This document shows positions 312-12,198 of a DNA stretch of 64,000 bases, piece after piece. Under the pieces are notes generated by a model that worked only from the letters and a program-made list of their open reading frames with translations, did not search any database and was not told where the DNA came from. The stretch is from Sulfurimonas sp. (GTDB lineage: Bacteria; Campylobacterota; Campylobacteria; Campylobacterales; Sulfurimonadaceae), in contig NZ_JBFHGL010000004.1 in NCBI RefSeq assembly GCF_041583195.1, positions 62,001-126,000 of the forward strand, read 5' to 3'. Numbering within the stretch: the stretch's first letter is position 1; every line of letters starts with the position of its first letter. A program made the translations under genes and the position numbers.

Positions 312-1241
312 GTGAGAGTATTATTTTTGTTGTTCTTAGCGACAATATTATTATCAAAAGATGTATATTTACCGGAAAACACCGTAGCTATTGTTAATGG
401 AATAGCAATTTCTGAGGATGAATTAAACAGAGAAGTAACGAAACTAATACCTCGTTCATATGTACACACAACAGTAGATGAAAAAAAGAGAAACAGCTTA
501 AAAGAGAAGGCATTAGATACTTTAATAAAAAAAACGCTTATGTATGATCATGCAATTAAAAGCAATATAACAGCTAGTGACGAGGAAATTAAATCTCAAT
601 TATCTGTAATAGTAAATAGATACAGTTCGGCTGAACTTTTCAATAAAGCATTAATAGAATCAAACTTTACAGTTGACACGCTAAAAAGCTCAATAAAAAA
701 AGATGTAATACTTAATAAGTTGTATAAAAAAGAGATAGAGTTTATACTAAGTGATGAAGAACTTAAAAATAACTATGAAAAAAACAAGCACAAGTTTCTT
801 GAACCTGAGAAAATCAGAGTTAGCCTGATCTATATAAAAAATGATCCACAAGATCCAAAAGGAAAAGAAAAAGCGATAAAAAAGGCAAAAGAAGCAGAAA
901 AAATGTTAGCAGATGGTGAAAACTTTGAATATGTTGCACAAACTTATTCAGATGATCCCACGCGTGTTATGGGTGGAGACCTGGGCTTTATCCATAGGGG
1001 AAGATTGCATCCATCTATTGAAGATATAGCCTTTTCACTCGACATAAACAAAGTAAGTAATGTTATTGTAAACGATATAGGGTATTTTATTGTAAAGGTA
1101 AAAGAAAAAAAGAAGCAAAACCAACTAGCATTTGAAACTGTTAAAGATAGCTTGGGAAAAAAATTAAAAAACAAAGAAGAGGATCTGCGAAAGGACAAAT
1201 TACTTAAAAGGTTAATGCTTAAAGCGGTAATAATCAAGTAG
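312..1241 (+). CDS. Exported parvulin-type peptidyl-prolyl isomerase (SurA/PpiC-like)
   Basis: The protein has 309 residues and begins with GTG; the region AAGTAAGGG just upstream can serve as ribosome binding site. Residues 1-16 form a short hydrophobic signal sequence. Residues about 25-150 are a helical SurA-N-like chaperone segment starting VAIVNGIAISEDEL. Residues about 160-265 are a parvulin rotamase domain with the typical FEYVAQTYSDDP and GGDLGFIHRGRLHP motifs. Such proteins help fold periplasmic and outer-membrane proteins. A barrel gene begins 7 bases after the stop, so the isomerase may be dedicated to that barrel or to the neighbouring multiheme cytochrome; that link is inference. 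Confidence 0.85.
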   Translation: MRVLFLLFLATILLSKDVYLPENTVAIVNGIAISEDELNREVTKLIPRSYVHTTVDEKKRNSLKEKALDTLIKKTLMYDHAIKSNITASDEEIKSQLSVIVNRYSSAELFNKALIESNFTVDTLKSSIKKDVILNKLYKKEIEFILSDEELKNNYEKNKHKFLEPEKIRVSLIYIKNDPQDPKGKEKAIKKAKEAEKMLADGENFEYVAQTYSDDPTRVMGGDLGFIHRGRLHPSIEDIAFSLDINKVSNVIVNDIGYFIVKVKEKKKQNQLAFETVKDSLGKKLKNKEEDLRKDKLLKRLMLKAVIIK

Positions 1242-1248
1242 TAATTAA

Positions 1249-3009
1249 ATGATAAAAAAAAAACTTTGTTTAAATTTATATCTATTGTTAATAGTAACAT
1301 CAATCCTATCAGCGAAAACTTATTCTGATAAAGGTCTATACGGTAGTTTAGGTTTTTCATATTCGGAACAAGAACTTTCTTCAACATCATACTATTCTTC
1401 AAGAGAAAGTCTTGAACAAATATATATGCTTGGCTATCAGGGATTTGTTTATAGCCCTCTCTTTCTAGACTATACACTAGAAGGTTTATTCAGATTAGAT
1501 GATGAAAATGTTAACAGTGATGGATTAAAGACAAAAAGAACAAATGATAGTAAAGGGTATAAAGCGAATTTGGATTTTTTAAAAAAAACAAGATATCCTT
1601 TTTCGATATTCGCTAACACACAACAAAGCCCGATTTCTATCATTAGTTACAATAATAATATTTATCAGACGTATGATCTTGATAGAAAAGGTATTAACGG
1701 TTCTATTGATTTAGATTCACTAAAATTGACTTATGGGGCACTTAAGACTGAAGGTATTTCAGAAAGTAACACTGCATCCCGCTCTATAGAGACAGATATA
1801 TACAACAGTAGTCTTAAATATACCAATGATCAACACAATGTTCAACTAAATTATCAGCATCGTAAAGAAACAATAGCACAACAATATATAGAAAATAATG
1901 AAAGTTTAAATAATGATTCTAAGCAGATTCAGAACAAGTTTGATATTCGTTACCTATGGGATGTTTCAAAAGACTTTAAATTTAGTTCCAATGCATCTTA
2001 TTTGGAAGATAGTTTATATTCAACAAAAACGACATCAGCGAATGTGAACTTAAATTGGAATCCTAAAGAAAAGTATAACGCTTCTATGAGTATGGGAACC
2101 TCACAGTATAAGTACTTAGAAGATACTATGAATTCTTATGATGTAAATCAAAACTTTGGATATAAGTTTTCACCATCATTTTATATATCAGAAATTTTTA
2201 ACTACTACAAAAGTGAAAGTTCTAAGCTGAGTAGTGACTCTTTAAGTTTACTACTCATGGCTAACTATAGGTATGATAAAATAATTTTTAATGACATAAG
2301 ATTTAATTTTTTCTCTTCACTTAGTGCTCAGGAAAATGAAACTAACACAGTCTCAAAAGTAGATAATATAACTAATAATAATCAAAAAGAGACCTACAGG
2401 GTTAATCTTAATGCCAGAGCTTCAAAACAGCTGCCCTCAATAAATTCTAATTTTATGTTAAGCAGTACATATTCTAACTCTATAACATCAGAGGATGAGA
2501 AACTTAAAAATTACTCTTTAAATTCATTTTTATCATCAAAAATATTTAGTATATTTACTAACATATTGGATGCAAAATATATGCAATATGATCGTTCAGT
2601 AAATAGTGTTGATGGAAAAACCACTACTACAAAATCTACTAAAAGAAGTATCGAAGAATCAATAGGTTTTCCACTTAGATTTGGACTAAGAGGTGGAATG
2701 AGTTTTAGAGTCGGGGTTACAAATATAGTCTATACAAATAATGAAGAAACTCAAAGTAGCACTTCTCCTACTGCAGATATAAGTCTAAATTATCGTTTTT
2801 TTACAAAGCTAATGTTTAAGTCCGCTATGCGTATTTATAAAAATTTTGATACCACTTATCGTACTGGTAATGCAGATTTAACTTTTAGATCTGGAAAAAC
2901 TTATTTTGCAATGGGTTATCAGTATAATAAGAGCGAGACAACGGGCGAGCAATTATTGTATAATACTAAGCGCTCCAACTTTAAAGTAACATTGACAAGA
3001 AGGTTTTAA
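1249..3009 (+). CDS. Outer-membrane beta-barrel protein, conduit-porin candidate
   Basis: This is a 586-residue protein with a signal peptide ending near AKTYS (residues 22-24). The rest is a long run of alternating polar and hydrophobic strands rich in Ser, Asn, Thr and Tyr, with short turns. The last residues, VTLTRRF, end in Phe, the usual signature for BAM-dependent barrel insertion. No plug, TonB box or enzymatic motif is visible. The length suits a barrel of 20 or more strands. Position between a prolyl isomerase gene and an NHL/multiheme cytochrome pair resembles the porin partner of porin-cytochrome electron conduits. I cannot assign it to a named family from sequence alone. Confidence 0.75.
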   Translation: MIKKKLCLNLYLLLIVTSILSAKTYSDKGLYGSLGFSYSEQELSSTSYYSSRESLEQIYMLGYQGFVYSPLFLDYTLEGLFRLDDENVNSDGLKTKRTNDSKGYKANLDFLKKTRYPFSIFANTQQSPISIISYNNNIYQTYDLDRKGINGSIDLDSLKLTYGALKTEGISESNTASRSIETDIYNSSLKYTNDQHNVQLNYQHRKETIAQQYIENNESLNNDSKQIQNKFDIRYLWDVSKDFKFSSNASYLEDSLYSTKTTSANVNLNWNPKEKYNASMSMGTSQYKYLEDTMNSYDVNQNFGYKFSPSFYISEIFNYYKSESSKLSSDSLSLLLMANYRYDKIIFNDIRFNFFSSLSAQENETNTVSKVDNITNNNQKETYRVNLNARASKQLPSINSNFMLSSTYSNSITSEDEKLKNYSLNSFLSSKIFSIFTNILDAKYMQYDRSVNSVDGKTTTTKSTKRSIEESIGFPLRFGLRGGMSFRVGVTNIVYTNNEETQSSTSPTADISLNYRFFTKLMFKSAMRIYKNFDTTYRTGNADLTFRSGKTYFAMGYQYNKSETTGEQLLYNTKRSNFKVTLTRRF

Positions 3010-3020
3010 GGATTAAATAG

Positions 3021-4034
3021 ATGAGTAGATTTTTATATATATTGTTTTTTTTAATAAGTATTGATTCTTTAAATGCTAAAGAGGTTCAAAAGTTGGTATG
3101 GCCATCTCCTCCAGATGAAGCGAAAATAGAGTATTTGTCTTTTGTGAGAAGCCCAGAAGAGTTTGGAATAGAAAAAGGGTTCTTTTCTAGAGCTTTTGAC
3201 TTTTTATTTGATGTAAGTGAAGCTTCTATATCTGCTCCATTTGGTCTTCATAGTGATAAAGGTAGGCTATATATAACTGATATATCATCTAAATCTCTTT
3301 ACATTTTTGATAAAAAAGAAGATGAAACAATTACTATTGAAGGCTCCGATGATGAGAGTTTTCTTTATCCAATAGATGTTGTAACAGATGTTGATGGAAA
3401 TATTTTTGTTTCAGATTCTGTTCGAGCTAAAATATATGTTTTTGAAAAAGATGGTGACTTTAGTTACAGCATATCAAACAAAGTTATTCAAAGACCTATT
3501 GGCATAGCAATAAGCAATGATAATAAAAAACTTTATGTGGTAGACAGTGTAGCTAGTAAGATACATGTAATAACTCCAAAAGGAAAGTTTATAAAAAGTA
3601 TTGGTAAAAAGGGATTAAACGATGGAGAGTTTAATAGACCAACATTTATAGATATTGGTAAAGATGGAAAAATATATGTCACAGACTCTATGAATCACCG
3701 TGTTCAGATACTTAATCCAGACGGAAAATTTATTAATAAATTTGGTTATATCGGTCAAGAAATAGGAAGTTTTGGAAGTCCTAGGGGAATATCATTAGAC
3801 AGTTACGAAAATATCTATGTCAGTGACACCATGTATAATACTATACAGGTTTTTAACAATAGTGGCGAACTGCTATTGGTATTTGGTAACTACGGTAAAA
3901 ATAAAGGCGAGTTTGCATTAGCTGAGGATATATCAATAACAGATGATAATACTATATATATTTCAGATACAAACAATAGAAGAGTCCAGGTTTTTAAACT
4001 GCTAGACTCAACTGCTGTTAGGAGTGTAAAATGA
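3021..4034 (+). CDS. Exported six-blade NHL beta-propeller protein
   Basis: The protein has 337 residues and a signal peptide ending near LNAKE (residue 19). Six NHL-like blades can be read: LYITDISSKSLYIF, IFVSDSVRAKIYVF, LYVVDSVASKIHVI, IYVTDSMNHRVQIL, IYVSDTMYNTIQVF and IYISDTNNRRVQVF, enough for a closed six-bladed propeller. The stop overlaps the start of the multiheme cytochrome gene (4031-4034), suggesting translational coupling and joint assembly. NHL proteins are common in gene clusters for large multiheme cytochromes, where they are thought to scaffold or contact partners; a role as periplasmic adaptor here is inference. Confidence 0.85.
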   Translation: MSRFLYILFFLISIDSLNAKEVQKLVWPSPPDEAKIEYLSFVRSPEEFGIEKGFFSRAFDFLFDVSEASISAPFGLHSDKGRLYITDISSKSLYIFDKKEDETITIEGSDDESFLYPIDVVTDVDGNIFVSDSVRAKIYVFEKDGDFSYSISNKVIQRPIGIAISNDNKKLYVVDSVASKIHVITPKGKFIKSIGKKGLNDGEFNRPTFIDIGKDGKIYVTDSMNHRVQILNPDGKFINKFGYIGQEIGSFGSPRGISLDSYENIYVSDTMYNTIQVFNNSGELLLVFGNYGKNKGEFALAEDISITDDNTIYISDTNNRRVQVFKLLDSTAVRSVK

Positions 4035-6157
4035 GATTAGTGATTTTTACTTTTTTAGGATTGTTTATACTTTTAAGTACACAAAGCTTTGCTTCAATAG
4101 TTAATACTAGACATAACCTTTCTGTGAGTAATAATGTAGTTCCTGTTGATGCCAATGATACAATTATAAAGGCTCAAGTTGAGACTGAAGTTTGTGTTTT
4201 TTGTCATGTTCCACACTTCTCACAACCGGTTGGAAAACCTTTATGGAACAGAAGTATGCCTACATCCCAATATACTATGTACGATAGTGACTATTTACGA
4301 AGAATGAATTACCCTGCAGTAGCAACAGATCTTGGTTCTGCAAATAATACTCCTGGAGCACTCTCTCGTCAGTGCTTAAGTTGTCACGATGGAACTATCG
4401 CAGTGGGTGCTGTTTCTAAGTTAAGAGGCACAAGTGATGCACTAATAGCTATGGATGGCGTCGCCGCTGATGGGACAATTCCATCAACAGCAACATTTGG
4501 TTTTTTTGGAACAGATTTAACAAATCATCATCCTGTTGGAATTGAATATGATGCAACACCGACTGTGTCATTTGGAGATGGTGGAGTAAGAGGCATGGAG
4601 CTTAAAGCTATACCTGATGCTCCTATAAAACTTTACGAATACTCAGGCTACTCTGGAAAGTATGTTGAGTGTTCGTCATGTCACGATCCGCATGTAGAAG
4701 GCAGCACCACAGAAAGCAATAAGTTTTTACATGTAGATTCTGAAGCAACTCATGCTGGAAACTTTGTTGCAACTTGTACATCTTGCCATCAAAAAGATGG
4801 ATGGGATTTAGGTGTTCACAAAACACCTCCTGGTAGTCCTAATTATTCTGATCCAGCGGTACTTGCAAAATATGGAACTTCAAGTGTCGCTGAGATGGGG
4901 TGTGCGAACTGTCACACTCCTCACAATGCAGAGGGTGTTCCTTATATAAACAGAAAACAGTTAGGTAATACATGTTTTCAAGGTGCGGCATCAACTGTAG
5001 AGGGAGGTGCATGTCATGGTGTTGGTGGTGCAAAAGATATACAGTCAGTTTTAACAAGAACTTATGTCCATCCTGTTGTTGCTTCAAGTACTGGAGATAG
5101 TAATCATACTAACCTTGACTCGCTTTATGGTACAGGTGATGTCGATATGCAAGGTAAAGGTGGAATGTCATGGGATAACAACAAACATGCAGTTTGTATG
5201 GATTGTCATAACCCACACCAAGCACAACCTGGAACACATATAGTAGATGGAAGCTGGTATGGAGAACCTGGCGCATCAACAAATCTGGTTTCAAACGTAC
5301 TTAAAGGAGTACCTGGGGTTGAGCCAACATGGCCAACAGCATGGACACAACCAACAACTTTCACAACTAAGAAAGAAGCAGAAAAAGAGTACCAAATATG
5401 TTTTAAATGTCACTCTTACTGGGGAATTGGTAACGCTATTAACGGTGTAAATACAGGTGGACACTACTCCCCTAGTGAACCGACTCAACTTCTAACCGAT
5501 GTAGCATGGGAGATGAATATTAACAATAAATCAGGTCACCCAGTAGTAATAAATCAACTAGGAAGAACAGGTTCTTATGATCCAAAAGCATTGGACCCAG
5601 CACAATTGCTTTCACCATGGAAAGAGAACCCAGGTTTAAATACTATGTATTGTTCAGATTGTCACGGAGCAGATAATGAGCTAGGCGGTGATCCAAAAGG
5701 ACCTCACGGTTCAGATCTTAAGTTTATTTTAAAAGGTGAAAATCAGTCATGGCCGTGGAAGCCTGGTACTACTACACTATACACAATGGATGACTTGGTA
5801 AATGGAACTGATGCAGATCTTTTTTGTAAAAATTGTCACGATCCGCAAGTACCACATGTAGATTGGTGGAATAAAATGTCTAATAAAGGTTACCAGTGTG
5901 TTCAGTGTCATGTAATGGTACCTCATGGTTCTCCTGTTTCTAGACTTCTTGGTTATTATAGTTTTCCAGAACCATACAATCTAAATGGAAACACACTGCA
6001 GATGCAAGGTTATAGAAAAAACGTTGGTATTATAGATCCTCTAGATATGTGGGCCGATGGAAGCTTGTCAGGTTCAAATACTTGTGATGGTGCAACTTGT
6101 CACAGAACTAATGATAGTGCCAATGGTGCTTATGATGCAGATTTAATTACGCCATAA
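4031..6157 (+). CDS. Exported multiheme cytochrome c with 10 CXXCH plus CX4CH and CX12CH motifs
   Basis: The protein has 708 residues with a signal peptide ending near QSFAS (residue 22). Ten canonical heme motifs are present, in order: CVFCH (residue 55), CLSCH, CSSCH, CTSCH, CANCH, CMDCH, CFKCH, CSDCH, CKNCH and CVQCH. Two unusual ones follow the CXnCH pattern: Cys315...Cys328-His329 (CX12CH) and Cys685...Cys690-His691 (CX4CH), giving up to 12 hemes. Several motifs continue as CXXCHxPH, as in doubled-CXXCH cytochromes. There is no lipobox, so it is predicted to be periplasmic or secreted. It overlaps the NHL gene upstream and is followed by ccsBA, whose product attaches heme. An electron-transfer conduit is the favoured role; a periplasmic reductase is possible. 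Confidence 0.9.
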   Translation: MRLVIFTFLGLFILLSTQSFASIVNTRHNLSVSNNVVPVDANDTIIKAQVETEVCVFCHVPHFSQPVGKPLWNRSMPTSQYTMYDSDYLRRMNYPAVATDLGSANNTPGALSRQCLSCHDGTIAVGAVSKLRGTSDALIAMDGVAADGTIPSTATFGFFGTDLTNHHPVGIEYDATPTVSFGDGGVRGMELKAIPDAPIKLYEYSGYSGKYVECSSCHDPHVEGSTTESNKFLHVDSEATHAGNFVATCTSCHQKDGWDLGVHKTPPGSPNYSDPAVLAKYGTSSVAEMGCANCHTPHNAEGVPYINRKQLGNTCFQGAASTVEGGACHGVGGAKDIQSVLTRTYVHPVVASSTGDSNHTNLDSLYGTGDVDMQGKGGMSWDNNKHAVCMDCHNPHQAQPGTHIVDGSWYGEPGASTNLVSNVLKGVPGVEPTWPTAWTQPTTFTTKKEAEKEYQICFKCHSYWGIGNAINGVNTGGHYSPSEPTQLLTDVAWEMNINNKSGHPVVINQLGRTGSYDPKALDPAQLLSPWKENPGLNTMYCSDCHGADNELGGDPKGPHGSDLKFILKGENQSWPWKPGTTTLYTMDDLVNGTDADLFCKNCHDPQVPHVDWWNKMSNKGYQCVQCHVMVPHGSPVSRLLGYYSFPEPYNLNGNTLQMQGYRKNVGIIDPLDMWADGSLSGSNTCDGATCHRTNDSANGAYDADLITP

Positions 6158-6168
6158 GAAGAGTTTAT

Positions 6169-6714
6169 ATGAGGTTAATTAAAATAACAACTATGGTACT
6201 GCTACTGTTAACATCATCACTTTTTTCAAATAGTGATGACAAGTATATAAAAGATGCACTTTTAAAGTACAACTTTGGGATTATAAAGATGACTAAAAGT
6301 GGTGACAGCACTCTGCTCAAAGATATGTTATCTAAAGATGTGTTTTTAAAGTTAATGGTATGGGCTGACTCATGGAAGTTTAGTAACCTTGCCATGGTTG
6401 CTCGTATTAATGACTTAAGATTTTCTCCAATAGCATATAATGAGAACAATGCCACCATCAAAACTATGGAAAATTGGACATTTGCTTATGCAAATTTAAA
6501 TACAAGAGATTTTGCACTTAAACCTATAACAATATTTTATAAAATGCATTATACGTTACAAAAAGATGGTGATATTTGGAAGATAATTGCAATTAAGCAT
6601 CTGCAAGAGGAGATCTTTGAAGATCAAAATCTTCATAAACCAGAGCCTAAACAAAAAAATATAGAAAATGAAATTATAAAAGATGCACCACAAGCAAAAA
6701 TAGCTACACATTAA
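6169..6714 (+). CDS. Small exported protein of unknown function, possibly NTF2-like
   Basis: The protein has 181 residues and a signal peptide ending near LFSNSD (residue 20). The mature part alternates helices and strands and contains FYKMHYTLQKDGDIWKIIAI, which resembles the closing strands of NTF2/SnoaL-like folds. The C-terminus is Lys/Glu-rich and looks disordered. There are no cysteines for heme. It sits 11 bases after the multiheme cytochrome gene and 58 bases before ccsBA on the same strand, so it is probably part of the same transcription unit. Its function is unknown. Confidence 0.6.
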   Translation: MRLIKITTMVLLLLTSSLFSNSDDKYIKDALLKYNFGIIKMTKSGDSTLLKDMLSKDVFLKLMVWADSWKFSNLAMVARINDLRFSPIAYNENNATIKTMENWTFAYANLNTRDFALKPITIFYKMHYTLQKDGDIWKIIAIKHLQEEIFEDQNLHKPEPKQKNIENEIIKDAPQAKIATH

Positions 6715-6772: not shown

Positions 6773-9700
6773 ATGACGTTAATTAAACAGGTATGGTCAT
6801 TTCTCATTTCTATGAAATTGATGGTGGCTTTGATTTTAATATTTGCAATTGCAAGTGCAGTAGGTACATTTGTTGAAAATGACTATGGAGTTAATACGTC
6901 ATGGGCACTAATATACAGCAGTAGATGGTTTGAAGCTGTACAGGTTTTACTAGGTATAAGTATAATTGGAAATATATTTAAGTATAAAATGTTTCAAAAA
7001 AAGAAAATACCTGTTCTTATTTTTCATATAAGTTTTTTAGTTATTTTACTTGGTTCAGGAATAACTCGTTATTATGGCTATGAAGGTGTTATGCATATTC
7101 GTGAAGGTGCTACAGTTAACGAGATGTTATCTTCTGATGCTTTATTGCAAGTAAAGGCTAAAAAAGGCTCTAAGGAGTTCAGTGCTGAAGAGATAGTCTA
7201 TATGTCAGAGCTTGGAGGAAGAGAGTTTGAAGAGAGTTTAAATATTGATGGCAAAGAACTGAGAGTAAAGTATAAAGATTATATGAAAAATGCTGTTAAA
7301 ACAGCTGTAGAAGATCCAAATGGTAGCCCTATAGCTGTGTTTGTAATACCTACACCACAGGGTCCGGAAAAATATGTCCTAAAAAGTGGTGAGTATATAG
7401 ATGTCGGACCATTGGCAGTTTTCTTCGATAAAGAACCTATAATGAACAATAAGCCAATTCTTCGTCTTATAACTGAGGGCGATAAGATATCATTTGTAGC
7501 TAATACAGATATAAACTGGATGAAGATGATTGATAGAACTAATGGTGTTTATAAACGAGGGCATAAGTACTTGTTTGACAACAGAAGAATGTACAATATA
7601 AACGGTGTTCAATTAGTTACAAAAGAGGTACTAACAAAAGGAAAAGTTCAAGTAGTTAAGCAAGAAGAATATAAAAAATCTATGAAGATGCAGATGAAGA
7701 TGCAGTCTCTTGATGCACTAATAGTAGATGTAGCTTACAATGGAGAACATCATGAAGTTGCACTAATGGGTAAAGGAAAACGATATCAAGGTTTTACAGA
7801 AAGAATAAAAATTGATGATCTTGACATTACATTAGAATGGGGTTCAAAAATTATAGAACTGCCTTTTTCATTAAGATTACGTGATTTTTTACTTCTAAAG
7901 TATCCTGGTTCGATGAGTCCATCATCTTATGAGAGTCATGTAACATTAATAGACCAGGAAAATCTAATTCAACGAGAACATAGAATATATATGAATCACA
8001 CACTTGATTATGGAGGGTATTTGTTTTTCCAATCTTCTTATGACAAAGATGAAAAAGGAACTATTCTTTCTGTAAATCACGATCCAGGAAAATGGCCTAC
8101 ATATTTAGGTTACACACTTTTAGCTATAGGGATGTTTCTGAACCTTTTTAATCCACATAGTTATTTTGGAAAACTCGCTCGTCAAAAGTATGAATACAAG
8201 GCTTCATTAGTAGCTACATTTGCACTTGTTGCATCGCTCTTTTATACGCAGCCTTTGGTAGCATCTCCTGTTGATAATCTTCCAAAGATAAATATAGACC
8301 ATGCTAACCATTATGCAACCATGTTAGTTCAAAGTCCAGATGGACGCATTAAGCCACTTGACTCTCATGCAATAGACTTAGTAAATAAGGTTGCGGGAAG
8401 AGACAGTATATTTGGTCTTAACCATAACCAGATTATTTTAGGTATGGTTGTAAATCAGAACGAGTGGAAGCAGATAGATATGATTAAGGTCACTCACCCA
8501 AAAGTTAAAGAGATTTTAGGTATAAGTAAAGATCAGAAAACTTTTGCATATGTTGATGCTTTTGATAAGTTTGGACAATACAAACTTGGGCCACTGGCAG
8601 AAGAGGCACTTAGAATGAGAGCTGCTGAGCGTGGTAAGTATGAAAAAGAACTGATTAAAGTAGATGAAAGACTAAATGTTGCATATGCTATTTATTCAGG
8701 TCGTTTTATGAATGTTTTTCCACTTGAAGGCGATCCAAACAATAAATGGCATTACCCAGGTTATGCACTGAAGAATTTTCCTCCGCAACTTTCACAAGAG
8801 ATTCTTACAATTTTAGAGAGTAATTCTAAGGGATTACAAACAGCTTTTAGTACTGGTAACTGGGATTCAGCAAACAAAGCTATTGATTCAATTAAAGAGT
8901 TTCAAAACAAGTATGGTGCTTCGGTTATTCCAGATAGTACTCTGGTTGAAGCAGAACTGTTATATAACAAGCTAAAGATATTTGACAGGCTCTTTCCTGT
9001 GTATTTAATAGCAGGATTTATACTTTTAATTTTGATATTTGTGCGTTTGGCAAAATCTAACTTAAATATAAAAACAGTTATGCGTCTAATATTTGTTGTT
9101 TTAGTTGTAGCTTTTGTTGCTCACACTATTAGTTTAGGACTAAGATGGTATATATCAGGTCACGCTCCTTGGAGTAATGGTTATGAGGCTATGCTTTATA
9201 TATCTTGGACAATAGTTCTAGCAGGTATCTCTTTTGCTAGAAGTTCAGACCTTGCAATGGCTACTACTTCTATCTTTGCCGGGGTAACACTCTTTGTAGC
9301 ACACCTTAGTTGGCTTGATCCACAGATAACTACTATGGTCCCAGTTTTAAAATCATACTGGTTAACTATACATGTATCTATTATTACAGCTAGTTACGGC
9401 TTTTTAGGTCTTAGTACACTACTTGGCTTTGTCTCTCTTATTTTTTATATTATGTTGAATAATGAAAGCAAAAGAGAGCAGTTAAGTGTAAATATATTAG
9501 AGTCAACTCGTATTAGTCAGATGTCAATGATATTAGGTTTATCTCTACTTACTGTTGGAAACTTCCTTGGTGGTGTTTGGGCCAATGAATCATGGGGTCG
9601 TTACTGGGGTTGGGATCCTAAAGAGACTTGGGCACTAGTAAGTATATTAGTTTATGTATTTGTAACTCATATGCGTTTTGTTCCAGGACTAAAGTCTAAC

Positions 9701-9922
9701 TTTACATTTAATGCAGTATCTGTAGTAGCTTATTCAGCTATAATAATGACATATTTTGGTGTAAACTATTATCTTTCAGGGTTACACTCATACGCGGCAG
9801 GTGATCCTGTTCCTATACCTGAATGGATTTACTATGTTATAAGTGTTATTGCAGTGGTTATAATAGCTGCGTGGTTTAATCGTAATAAGTTGATAGATGT
9901 AAAGCCAATAAAACAGAACTAA
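6773..9922 (+). CDS. ccsBA: Fused system II cytochrome c synthase CcsBA
   Basis: The 1049-residue integral membrane protein exports heme and joins it to CXXCH cysteines in the periplasm. The N-terminal half is ResB/CcsB-like, with membrane segments near residues 10-35, 60-75 and 85-100 and a His in LIFHISF (about residue 84). The C-terminal half is CcsA-like, with the WWD heme-handling segment SWGRYWGWDPKETW near residue 945. External histidines lie in SGHAPWSNGYEAM (about 797) and SGLHSYAAGDP (about 1003), and a membrane His in LTIHVSI (about 866). Fused CcsBA is usual in Campylobacterota. Wolinella has several, some specialised for unusual heme motifs. Its place after a cytochrome with CX12CH and CX4CH suggests similar specialisation. 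Confidence 0.95.
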   Translation: MTLIKQVWSFLISMKLMVALILIFAIASAVGTFVENDYGVNTSWALIYSSRWFEAVQVLLGISIIGNIFKYKMFQKKKIPVLIFHISFLVILLGSGITRYYGYEGVMHIREGATVNEMLSSDALLQVKAKKGSKEFSAEEIVYMSELGGREFEESLNIDGKELRVKYKDYMKNAVKTAVEDPNGSPIAVFVIPTPQGPEKYVLKSGEYIDVGPLAVFFDKEPIMNNKPILRLITEGDKISFVANTDINWMKMIDRTNGVYKRGHKYLFDNRRMYNINGVQLVTKEVLTKGKVQVVKQEEYKKSMKMQMKMQSLDALIVDVAYNGEHHEVALMGKGKRYQGFTERIKIDDLDITLEWGSKIIELPFSLRLRDFLLLKYPGSMSPSSYESHVTLIDQENLIQREHRIYMNHTLDYGGYLFFQSSYDKDEKGTILSVNHDPGKWPTYLGYTLLAIGMFLNLFNPHSYFGKLARQKYEYKASLVATFALVASLFYTQPLVASPVDNLPKINIDHANHYATMLVQSPDGRIKPLDSHAIDLVNKVAGRDSIFGLNHNQIILGMVVNQNEWKQIDMIKVTHPKVKEILGISKDQKTFAYVDAFDKFGQYKLGPLAEEALRMRAAERGKYEKELIKVDERLNVAYAIYSGRFMNVFPLEGDPNNKWHYPGYALKNFPPQLSQEILTILESNSKGLQTAFSTGNWDSANKAIDSIKEFQNKYGASVIPDSTLVEAELLYNKLKIFDRLFPVYLIAGFILLILIFVRLAKSNLNIKTVMRLIFVVLVVAFVAHTISLGLRWYISGHAPWSNGYEAMLYISWTIVLAGISFARSSDLAMATTSIFAGVTLFVAHLSWLDPQITTMVPVLKSYWLTIHVSIITASYGFLGLSTLLGFVSLIFYIMLNNESKREQLSVNILESTRISQMSMILGLSLLTVGNFLGGVWANESWGRYWGWDPKETWALVSILVYVFVTHMRFVPGLKSNFTFNAVSVVAYSAIIMTYFGVNYYLSGLHSYAAGDPVPIPEWIYYVISVIAVVIIAAWFNRNKLIDVKPIKQN

Positions 9923-10550: not shown

Positions 10551-11450
10551 TTACATAGCAGTTAATTTTGCTTCTTCGATTATAACAGAAAATTTATATC
10601 CATAACCAAGATCAACATTTGTTTTAATAGTTCCCTCTGCAGTAACAATATCACCAACTTTTACAGTTGAATTTTTTGATGTAGCGATTATGTCATTTGT
10701 TCCAGCTGAGCCTGTACCGTCTTGCAGGTGAATCCAGTCTTTACCCATAATGTTTTTAGATACTTTAACAACTTTAGCATTAACTTTTATGTTTTTTGAG
10801 TCTAAGTCTGCTTTTTTTGTATGTAACTCTTCTACGCTATATCCGTTTTTATTTTTACTAACATTTATAGCTTCTGCAGTTGTGGAAGTTTTAGAGCCAT
10901 ACGCACTTTGAGCGTGTGGATTTGAAGCAGTTTTGCTTTCATCACTACAATCACAATTTTTGTGAGCATCACTTAGTGTTTTTGTATTTGCCGCAGCAGT
11001 TTTTTTACCTGATCCATCAGTAGAGATGATAGCACTTACAAATACAAGTTGATCAAATGTTTTGTTTAAAGACTTACTTGTAAAGTCTTTCATAACCATT
11101 TGTTCAAGAAAAGATATATTTGAACCAACTGATATATTAGACTGTGGACCCGCAATCCAGTAGATATTACCTTTTTCATCTACTTTAGCATATGTATAGC
11201 CGCCACCGTTAATAGTTTCTAATACATTTGCAATATGAGGAGTGTTCAGTTGAACATCTGTATCTGACGGTACTTTTGCTTGAGCAGGTTGTTCTGTTGA
11301 AGTACCATATATTGAGTTAGATACTTCACTCGCCATTGATTTGTCAGTACTTTGAGTTTTTTCAGTTTTGCTGTTTTCATTTTGTTCTTTATCACCGCAA
11401 CCACACATTAATAGTGCAGCTAAACTAATAGCAATAGAAATTTTATTCAT
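10551..11450 (-). CDS. NrfJ-like exported lipoprotein with C-terminal OB-fold-like domain
   Basis: The protein has 299 residues. Its N-terminus is hydrophobic and followed by LMCGCGDKEQ, a plausible but imperfect lipobox at Cys19. After a low-complexity linker, residues about 75-140 contain GGGYTYAKVDEKGNIYWIAGP, as in NrfJ-type proteins linked to nitrite-reductase and cytochrome loci. A second linker carries DCDCSDE-like acidic/Cys sequence, and residues about 205-299 resemble an OB-fold with NIMGKDWIHLQDGTG and DLGYGYKFSVIIEEA. The start overlaps the end of the cytochrome gene upstream by 8 bases, so the two are translationally coupled. Function is unclear; metal or redox-ligand handling is speculative. 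Confidence 0.7.
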   Translation of the reverse strand: MNKISIAISLAALLMCGCGDKEQNENSKTEKTQSTDKSMASEVSNSIYGTSTEQPAQAKVPSDTDVQLNTPHIANVLETINGGGYTYAKVDEKGNIYWIAGPQSNISVGSNISFLEQMVMKDFTSKSLNKTFDQLVFVSAIISTDGSGKKTAAANTKTLSDAHKNCDCSDESKTASNPHAQSAYGSKTSTTAEAINVSKNKNGYSVEELHTKKADLDSKNIKVNAKVVKVSKNIMGKDWIHLQDGTGSAGTNDIIATSKNSTVKVGDIVTAEGTIKTNVDLGYGYKFSVIIEEAKLTAM

Positions 11451-12198
11451 TTTTTTCCTTTAATTTTTTTTGTTCTTCTTGATATCTTTTTTTCGCTTCT
11501 TCTAGAGTTTCATTTGGATTTTTACTTTTTCTAAAGTACTCTTCCATAAACTTATTATAATCAGCTTCTTCTTTAGTGATCTTTTTCTTCGGTTTAGTTG
11601 TCTTTTCTTGTATTGCATCTTCTTCAACCGGAGTTAGAGATTCAATATATTCAGCAACATCATCCATCTGTTTATCTGTAAGTTTTGTAGCTTGACCTTG
11701 CATCATACTTCCATAGTTATAAGTATTTCTTTCGCCGGCTCTGTATTGTTTTAATATTTTAATAACTTCTTCTGCCTTCATTCCAGCGATATGCTTACTA
11801 ACACCAAGTGATTTCTTCTGTCCTGCATCCCCGTGACATATTGCACACTTTTTAAAAACTTCTTCAGGAGTGAGTTCTTTTTTATCTTGTGCTAGTTCTT
11901 TAGGTTCTACTTTAGGAAGAGATTCGATATATTTAGACAGTGTCTCAATCTCATCTTCAGATAGATTTTTTGCTTGCCCATTCATAATAGTTCCAAGACC
12001 GTAAATATTTCTTGTACCATTTTTGTATTCATATAGTATTTTAGCTACATCGTTTGCTTGCATACCAGCAATACTTTTTGTTAAACCTAAAGAATGTTTT
12101 TCTCCTTTTACTCCATGACAAATTCCACATTTATCAAATAGTTGAGTCGCAAATGATATAGAAACAACAGATAGCATTAGAAATATAATTTTCACCAT
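11443..12198 (-). CDS. Exported two-domain (diheme) class I cytochrome c with charged tail
   Basis: The protein has 251 residues and a signal peptide ending near SFATQ (residue 18). Two homologous c553-like domains follow, with CGICH (about residue 24) and CAICH (about 117). Each has a downstream Met axial-ligand candidate, in GTIMNGQA and GSMMQGQA. The two domains clearly arose by duplication. The last 60 residues are a Lys/Glu-rich helix-forming tail, unusual for a small periplasmic cytochrome. It lies 3 bases after the Sel1 gene and overlaps the NrfJ-like gene by 8 bases. It probably shuttles electrons in the periplasm; the partner is unknown. Confidence 0.88.
   Translation of the reverse strand: MVKIIFLMLSVVSISFATQLFDKCGICHGVKGEKHSLGLTKSIAGMQANDVAKILYEYKNGTRNIYGLGTIMNGQAKNLSEDEIETLSKYIESLPKVEPKELAQDKKELTPEEVFKKCAICHGDAGQKKSLGVSKHIAGMKAEEVIKILKQYRAGERNTYNYGSMMQGQATKLTDKQMDDVAEYIESLTPVEEDAIQEKTTKPKKKITKEEADYNKFMEEYFRKSKNPNETLEEAKKRYQEEQKKLKEKNE

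Follow-up and report, generated by a model that had tools for sequence, protein, structure and literature searches.

Heme attachment sites in which the two cysteines stand much farther apart than in CXXCH are known from multiheme cytochromes. According to excerpts of the papers concerned, heme 1 of Geobacter OmcZ has a CX14CH motif, in which a loop between the cysteines takes the place of CXXCH (PMC9473688), a subset of the Borg OmcZ proteins is without this loop (PMC11208441), and the CX15CH site of MccA in Wolinella requires a separate lyase, CcsA1 (PMC6976685). The SirA motif, written CX12NKGCH, is of the CX15CH type and is not a CX12CH motif. A preliminary description of the locus reported here had named MccA (CX15CH) and OmcZ (CX14CH) as precedents for a CX12CH site, and the excerpts of PMC6976685 and PMC9473688 do contain them. 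Long CXnCH sites are an accepted kind of heme site, and the CX12CH site described below differs from them in length and in protein family.

The site lies in a 64,000 nucleotide stretch of a Sulfurimonas genome (contig NZ_JBFHGL010000004.1, positions 62,001 to 126,000; "the window"), within a gene for a 708 amino acid cytochrome (Table 1). Like OmcZ, an outer-surface multiheme cytochrome, this cytochrome has one looped heme site and relatives that are without the loop; OmcZ, however, is an octaheme filament protein that differs from it in loop length, protein family and gene neighbours, and did not appear when the family profile of the 708 amino acid cytochrome was searched against PDB sequences, which gave 19 matches at E 0.1. 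It also resembles MccA/SirA in being a multiheme protein with a long CXnCH heme site, but the MccA/SirA site belongs to a sulfite reductase, and the 708 amino acid cytochrome matched no such family. A literature search for "CX12CH" in that spelling together with heme and cytochrome gave no match, so spelled (an earlier description of the twelve-heme protein is possible), and a plasmid search by protein also gave none. The methods section of PMC12545173, as excerpted, counts hemes as CXnCH with n = 2 to 5. Counts made in that way, or from CXXCH only, would miss the putative heme 6 in members of this family that have CX12CH, and a missed heme 6 would appear as a broken heme chain in models of electron flow.

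Table 1. Features of the cytochrome locus, in window coordinates
Feature	Position	Strand	Remark
SurA/PpiC-type peptidyl-prolyl isomerase	312..1241	+	
586-aa candidate outer-membrane barrel (porin) of conduit	1249..3009	+	28 long predicted strands
NHL-repeat beta-propeller protein	3021..4034	+	overlaps cytochrome gene start
708-aa cytochrome, 12 heme motifs	4031..6157	+	N-terminal OmcE-like four-heme module, then C-terminal eight-motif part
CX12CH putative heme-6 site, C315...C328-H329, of 12-heme cytochrome	4973..5017	+	
12-residue stretch between C315 and C328	4976..5011	+	starts with conserved [FY]xG[A]
C-terminal CX4CH site, C685...C690-H691	6083..6103	+	variable or degenerate in many homologues
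Conserved small protein between cytochrome and CcsBA	6169..6714	+	without Pfam match
CcsBA (System II cytochrome c synthase)	6773..9922	+	candidate lyase for the operon's cytochromes

Heme motifs and domain structure of the cytochrome

The translation of nucleotides 4031-6157 (+ strand) contains 24 cysteines, each of which lies in a heme motif, and by sequence count none is unpaired. Twenty of them make up ten CXXCH motifs (at C55, C115, C214, C249, C291, C389, C457, C541, C599 and C623), and the others belong to the CX12CH motif and the C-terminal CX4CH motif. Because no cysteine is left over, counting both unusual sites gives 12 motifs, leaving out CX12CH gives 11, and counting CXXCH alone gives 10. 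The preliminary description had placed the CX12CH motif at 4973-5017, in a protein where nearly every other cysteine belongs to CXXCH; both statements hold, and its coordinates and spacing are exact. The C315 codon is at 4973 and the C328-H329 codons are at 5012-5017, with exactly 12 residues between the two cysteines (FQGAASTVEGGA), a stretch that is ten residues longer than that in the CXXCH of the distant homologues discussed below. The C-terminal CX4CH, which is much less conserved, and the nearby CcsBA gene were absent from that description.

Residues 9-223 match PDB 7tfs_A with an E value of 1.7e-18 in a single-sequence search, and positions 5-236 of the family profile match the same chain with an E value of 5.5e-45; the title of entry 7tfs gives it as the OmcE nanowire of Geobacter sulfurreducens. 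The AlphaFold model of the cytochrome is middling (mean pLDDT 67.7, pTM 0.71), and OmcE is its only Foldseek match at E <= 0.001 (E 4e-05); VIA-align also found OmcE alone, with a Z of 5.4 over 126 residues, which possibly reflects just a common arrangement. By sequence homology the cytochrome begins with an OmcE-like four-heme module, and the eight-motif part after it carries the predicted heme 5 and the CX12CH heme 6. It thus shares a homologous N-terminal module with OmcE (7TFS) and, unlike that tetraheme protein, has 12 motifs, the additional eight including CX12CH; another gene of the cluster, located upstream, encodes a stand-alone OmcE-like tetraheme protein.

We consider it highly probable (roughly 0.9) that C315...C328-H329 is the ordinary heme 6 of a dodecaheme cytochrome, with a loop inserted between its cysteines, in an exported protein related to OmcE. 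We infer that C315 and C328 would both be thioether-linked to one heme and that H329 would serve as the proximal ligand of that heme, the arrangement known from CXXCH sites, while the approximately ten residues inserted between the cysteines would bulge from the heme site. Electrons would then pass along the heme chain through heme 6, attachment of the hemes would fall to System II synthase (CcsBA), with the product of the nearby gene probably taking part, and the loop may make contacts at the surface or with a partner, as has been reported for OmcZ.

Conservation and spacing of the probable heme-6 site among homologues

A search of 99 genomes, that of our Sulfurimonas included, found ten homologues that are 47-66% identical to the query, including one truncated at the end of its contig. 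C315, C328, H329 and an ungapped loop are kept in all ten; those that extend over the C-terminal site have CX4, CX5 or a degenerate motif there. A scan of genome contigs gave 76 loci; its seeds were peptides from the heme-2 and heme-5 regions, rather than from the CX12CH site. Part of the homologues were recruited with a profile that includes the CX12CH site. The resulting alignment of 74 sequences holds rows of at least 100 bits, without L114, L117, L125, one L100 open reading frame and seven exact duplicates, and with the tetraheme L091_2712, which was removed from later sets. Both cysteines and the histidine are kept in 54/54 close rows that cross the site (at least 43% identity, query counted), and the spacing is 12 in 53 of these and 13 in one (L077). 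The three close rows that fall short of the site are L101 and L104, which stop at a contig edge, and a fragment of L103 that begins past it. Because all 54 rows keep C315, C328 and H329, the CX12CH motif is not a chance occurrence. Among the 55 rows holding C315, residue 316 is F or Y and residue 318 is G in every one, and residue 319 is A in 53; the remaining loop varies, and only the first loop residues are strongly conserved in the close-family alignment.

The homologues come from records named as Sulfurimonas, other Campylobacterota, Persephonella, other Aquificota and Nitrospirota, with one contig binned as Bacteroidetes (L081); the cytochrome on the latter, at 49% identity, groups with those of Aquificota, and the contig is probably misbinned. 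We note that a Persephonella MAG (L103:8983-11053) has its cytochrome copy in two overlapping open reading frames, which is a frameshift or an assembly error.

More distant relatives (25-31% identity) come from Planctomycetota, Desulfobacula, Gammaproteobacteria and others. All 16 distant rows across the site have Cys, Cys and His in the corresponding columns; 15 have a plain CXXCH at the heme-6 columns, and the other, L126, has CX4CH and is so remote that its placement at heme 6 is uncertain. A total of 12 motifs, 11 CXXCH and then a final CX3CH, is present in 14 of these 16 proteins and equals that of the 708 amino acid cytochrome. To avoid dependence on one aligner, we also made one alignment of the close group and another of the far group and compared their profiles with hhalign (probability 100, E 2e-103), which pairs C315 and C328-H329 with CXXCH and leaves a ten-column gap between the two cysteines. 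The agreement of the distant CXXCH columns with this pairing indicates that the CX12CH motif is a homologue of a canonical heme site and not a look-alike. It also bears on the idea that C315 and C328, which as a cysteine pair 12 residues apart in an exported protein could form a disulfide, are joined in a structural bond in a protein with 11 hemes, H329 being only a spectator: this is very improbable, since a CXXCH occupies the corresponding position in 15 of the 16 distant rows and H329 is as invariant as both cysteines, in the close rows and in the larger set that follows.

Further homologue searches covered the phyla to which five genomes belong (397, 297, 245, 136 and 246 genomes). After 44 matches covering fewer than 380 profile positions were dropped and seven duplicates removed, the enlarged set had 147 distinct rows, of which 144 span the site (L101, L104 and the L103 fragment do not). 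With a motif counted if it lies at most 5 residues from the expected column, C...CH is present at heme 6 in 144/144 distinct spanning rows (query counted), with n = 12 in 69, n = 2 in 62, n = 7 in four, n = 13 in three, n = 3 and n = 4 in two each, and n = 16 and n = 17 in one each. By plain column reading, C/C/H stands in 149 of the 154 rows of the tree alignment, the five exceptions being L101, L104, the L103 fragment, and L209 (n = 4) and L243 (n = 2), whose motifs are just beside the column. The preliminary description had taken CX12CH for a heme-binding motif and had pointed to close homologues without C315 or C328 as the observation that would speak against it; no such loss was found, and the 144 rows with C...CH, together with the CXXCH of the 15 distant rows, support that assignment. 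Very probably, CX12CH is still a real heme site at this length. Attachment through C328-H329 by one thioether, as reportedly occurs at single cysteines in some c-type cytochromes, with C315 kept for some other reason, would be hard to reconcile with these data, and we give it very little credence: C315 is kept as strictly as C328 at every loop length found and pairs, in the hhalign comparison, with the first cysteine of the distant CXXCH.

An alignment of 41 rows (32 close rows and 9 of the 16 far ones) shows 13 fully conserved histidines that belong to no motif; C315, C328 and H329 are invariant in it as well. Such a number fits the 12 distal ligands of twelve bis-His hemes and cannot separate 11 hemes from 12. 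A counterweight to the twelve-heme reading is found at site 12, where the spacing ranges from n = 2 to n = 11 and some homologue rows have CXCH or CXXKH; 28 of the 147 distinct rows are unmatched there, so not every motif is essential. Every motif matched at sites 1-5 and 7-11 has n = 2, save for a single row with n = 5 at site 1; between 0 and 7 rows per site are unmatched.

Since n = 2 prevails at nearly all other sites, and at heme 6 in most of the outlying groups, we infer that the change at heme 6 was an insertion. A FastTree tree of the cytochromes (141 rows, heme-6 columns removed, with open forks) requires no fewer than 3 changes between long (n at least 7) and short spacing, and no fewer than 10 for exact n. 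We tentatively suggest, as a possibility somewhat short of even odds, that heme 6 is a tolerated insertion hot spot, where the spacing has changed repeatedly (2, 3, 4, 7, 12, 13, 16, 17) with the heme retained; that the loop, lying outside the heme chain, would serve for docking or for contact with an acceptor; and that in Campylobacterota and Aquificota it would be co-inherited with a CcsBA specialised to handle the long spacing. If so, these proteins would be a natural series for learning how cytochrome c synthases recognise their substrate. The eight spacings at one corresponding site form a set with which to ask what a synthase needs besides C...CH.

The gene cluster as a candidate electron conduit

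The genes of the cluster lie in the order single-heme cytochrome, 401 amino acid 12-motif cytochrome, 8-motif cytochrome, OmcE-like tetraheme cytochrome, NHL protein, peptidyl-prolyl isomerase, barrel, NHL protein, 708 amino acid cytochrome, small conserved protein and CcsBA, and much of this order is also found beside the cytochromes of relatives. The four cytochrome genes at the upstream end of the cluster are at L044:11560-15113, about 0.9-4.4 kb before the window start on the same contig. The 401 amino acid cytochrome among them has 11 CXXCH and a CX3CH, and the upstream tetraheme protein matches OmcE with an E value of 3.9e-23. After the cluster, genes for a lipoprotein and a diheme cytochrome c (window 10551-12198, minus strand) recur beside it in several relatives.

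Pfam gave no match for the 586 amino acid protein encoded at 1249-3009. Its model has 28 strands and a mean pLDDT of 91.7, and a Foldseek search with it finds outer-membrane barrels, MtrB (6r2q_B) being second, with TM-scores that are all low (0.35 for MtrB). A large predicted beta-barrel is thus encoded with multiheme cytochromes, the arrangement by which porin-cytochrome conduits are recognised. The OmcE match, the predicted 28-strand barrel and the CcsBA heme lyase in the operon together suggest an outer-surface electron conduit. Judged from homology and gene order, the 708 amino acid cytochrome with the barrel, the NHL propellers and the tetraheme protein would most likely make up such a conduit, or else the base on which an OmcE-type filament stands, and the cluster is a candidate outer-membrane electron conduit in Sulfurimonas and its relatives. 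Comparable loci are described in excerpts of earlier papers: one in Geoalkalibacter ferrihydriticus has multiheme cytochromes, an OmcE homologue and two NHL proteins (PMC12016550), and in Desulfovibrio ferrophilus NHL proteins are clustered with multiheme cytochromes (PMC9769857); the excerpts are silent on expanded heme sites and on linked CcsBAs at these loci. For one study's Sulfurimonas MAG, the excerpted text considers that an undetected porin is possibly used (PMC11748539).

The linked CcsBA heme lyase

The Sulfurimonas genome encodes two PF01578 proteins, one of which is the CcsBA of the window (6773-9922). The cytochrome query was matched in 13 of the 99 genomes, in G058 by its tetraheme part only and in G023 and G029 by C-terminal fragments only, at contig ends. 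Without G058, the 12 genomes with the cytochrome are the same 12 that have a CcsBA at least 55% identical to that of the window, C-terminal CcsBA fragments of about 205 residues or less in other genomes having been set aside in this match. A quick IQ-TREE tree, which has several long branches, places the linked CcsBAs apart from the additional CcsBAs that their own genomes encode.

We scored a locus for a nearby lyase if 3 kb or more of sequence follows the cytochrome; L062, L066, L095 and L098, which have a CcsBA piece, and several loci with none have less than 3 kb and were left out. The search model was built from near relatives, so remote lyases could escape the following counts. Among 42 scored CX12/13CH loci, 28 have CcsBA, 4 have a divergent CcsA piece only and 10 have none; the 22 scored loci with n = 2-4 have CcsBA in 2, a CcsA piece in 2 and none in 18; and 3/3 scored loci with n = 7 or 17 have none. 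A strict requirement of CX12CH for CcsBA, which we had entertained, was downgraded on account of the ten CX12/13CH loci that are without one.

The nearby CcsBA may be a dedicated heme lyase needed for CX12CH, as CcsA1 is for the Wolinella CX15CH (PMC6976685, in excerpt). The co-occurrence in the same 12 of 99 genomes, the separate grouping of the linked CcsBAs and the much higher frequency of CcsBA at CX12/13CH loci than at n = 2-4 loci favour this idea, but the association tracks clade and operon as much as motif, 14 of the CX12/13CH loci have either no lyase or only the divergent piece, the n = 7 or 17 loci have no CcsBA, and several second cytochrome gene copies are without a linked one; in addition, the title of a 2010 Wolinella paper states that unconventional motifs are insufficient for attachment by NrfI and CcsA1. 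We regard a dedicated lyase as possible but less likely than not. On our reading the lyase travels with the operon and possibly helps; the counts stop short of proof of a site-specific enzyme.

Cytochrome copies without a linked CcsBA include those of L065, L067, L071, L074, L076, L084 and L094, and several of these are second copies. Two loci (L050:5016-7959 and L051:4907-7850) have split CcsB and CcsA genes soon past the cytochrome and a fused CcsBA a few kb further on, and at L078:11453-17808 there are three consecutive CcsBA-type open reading frames.
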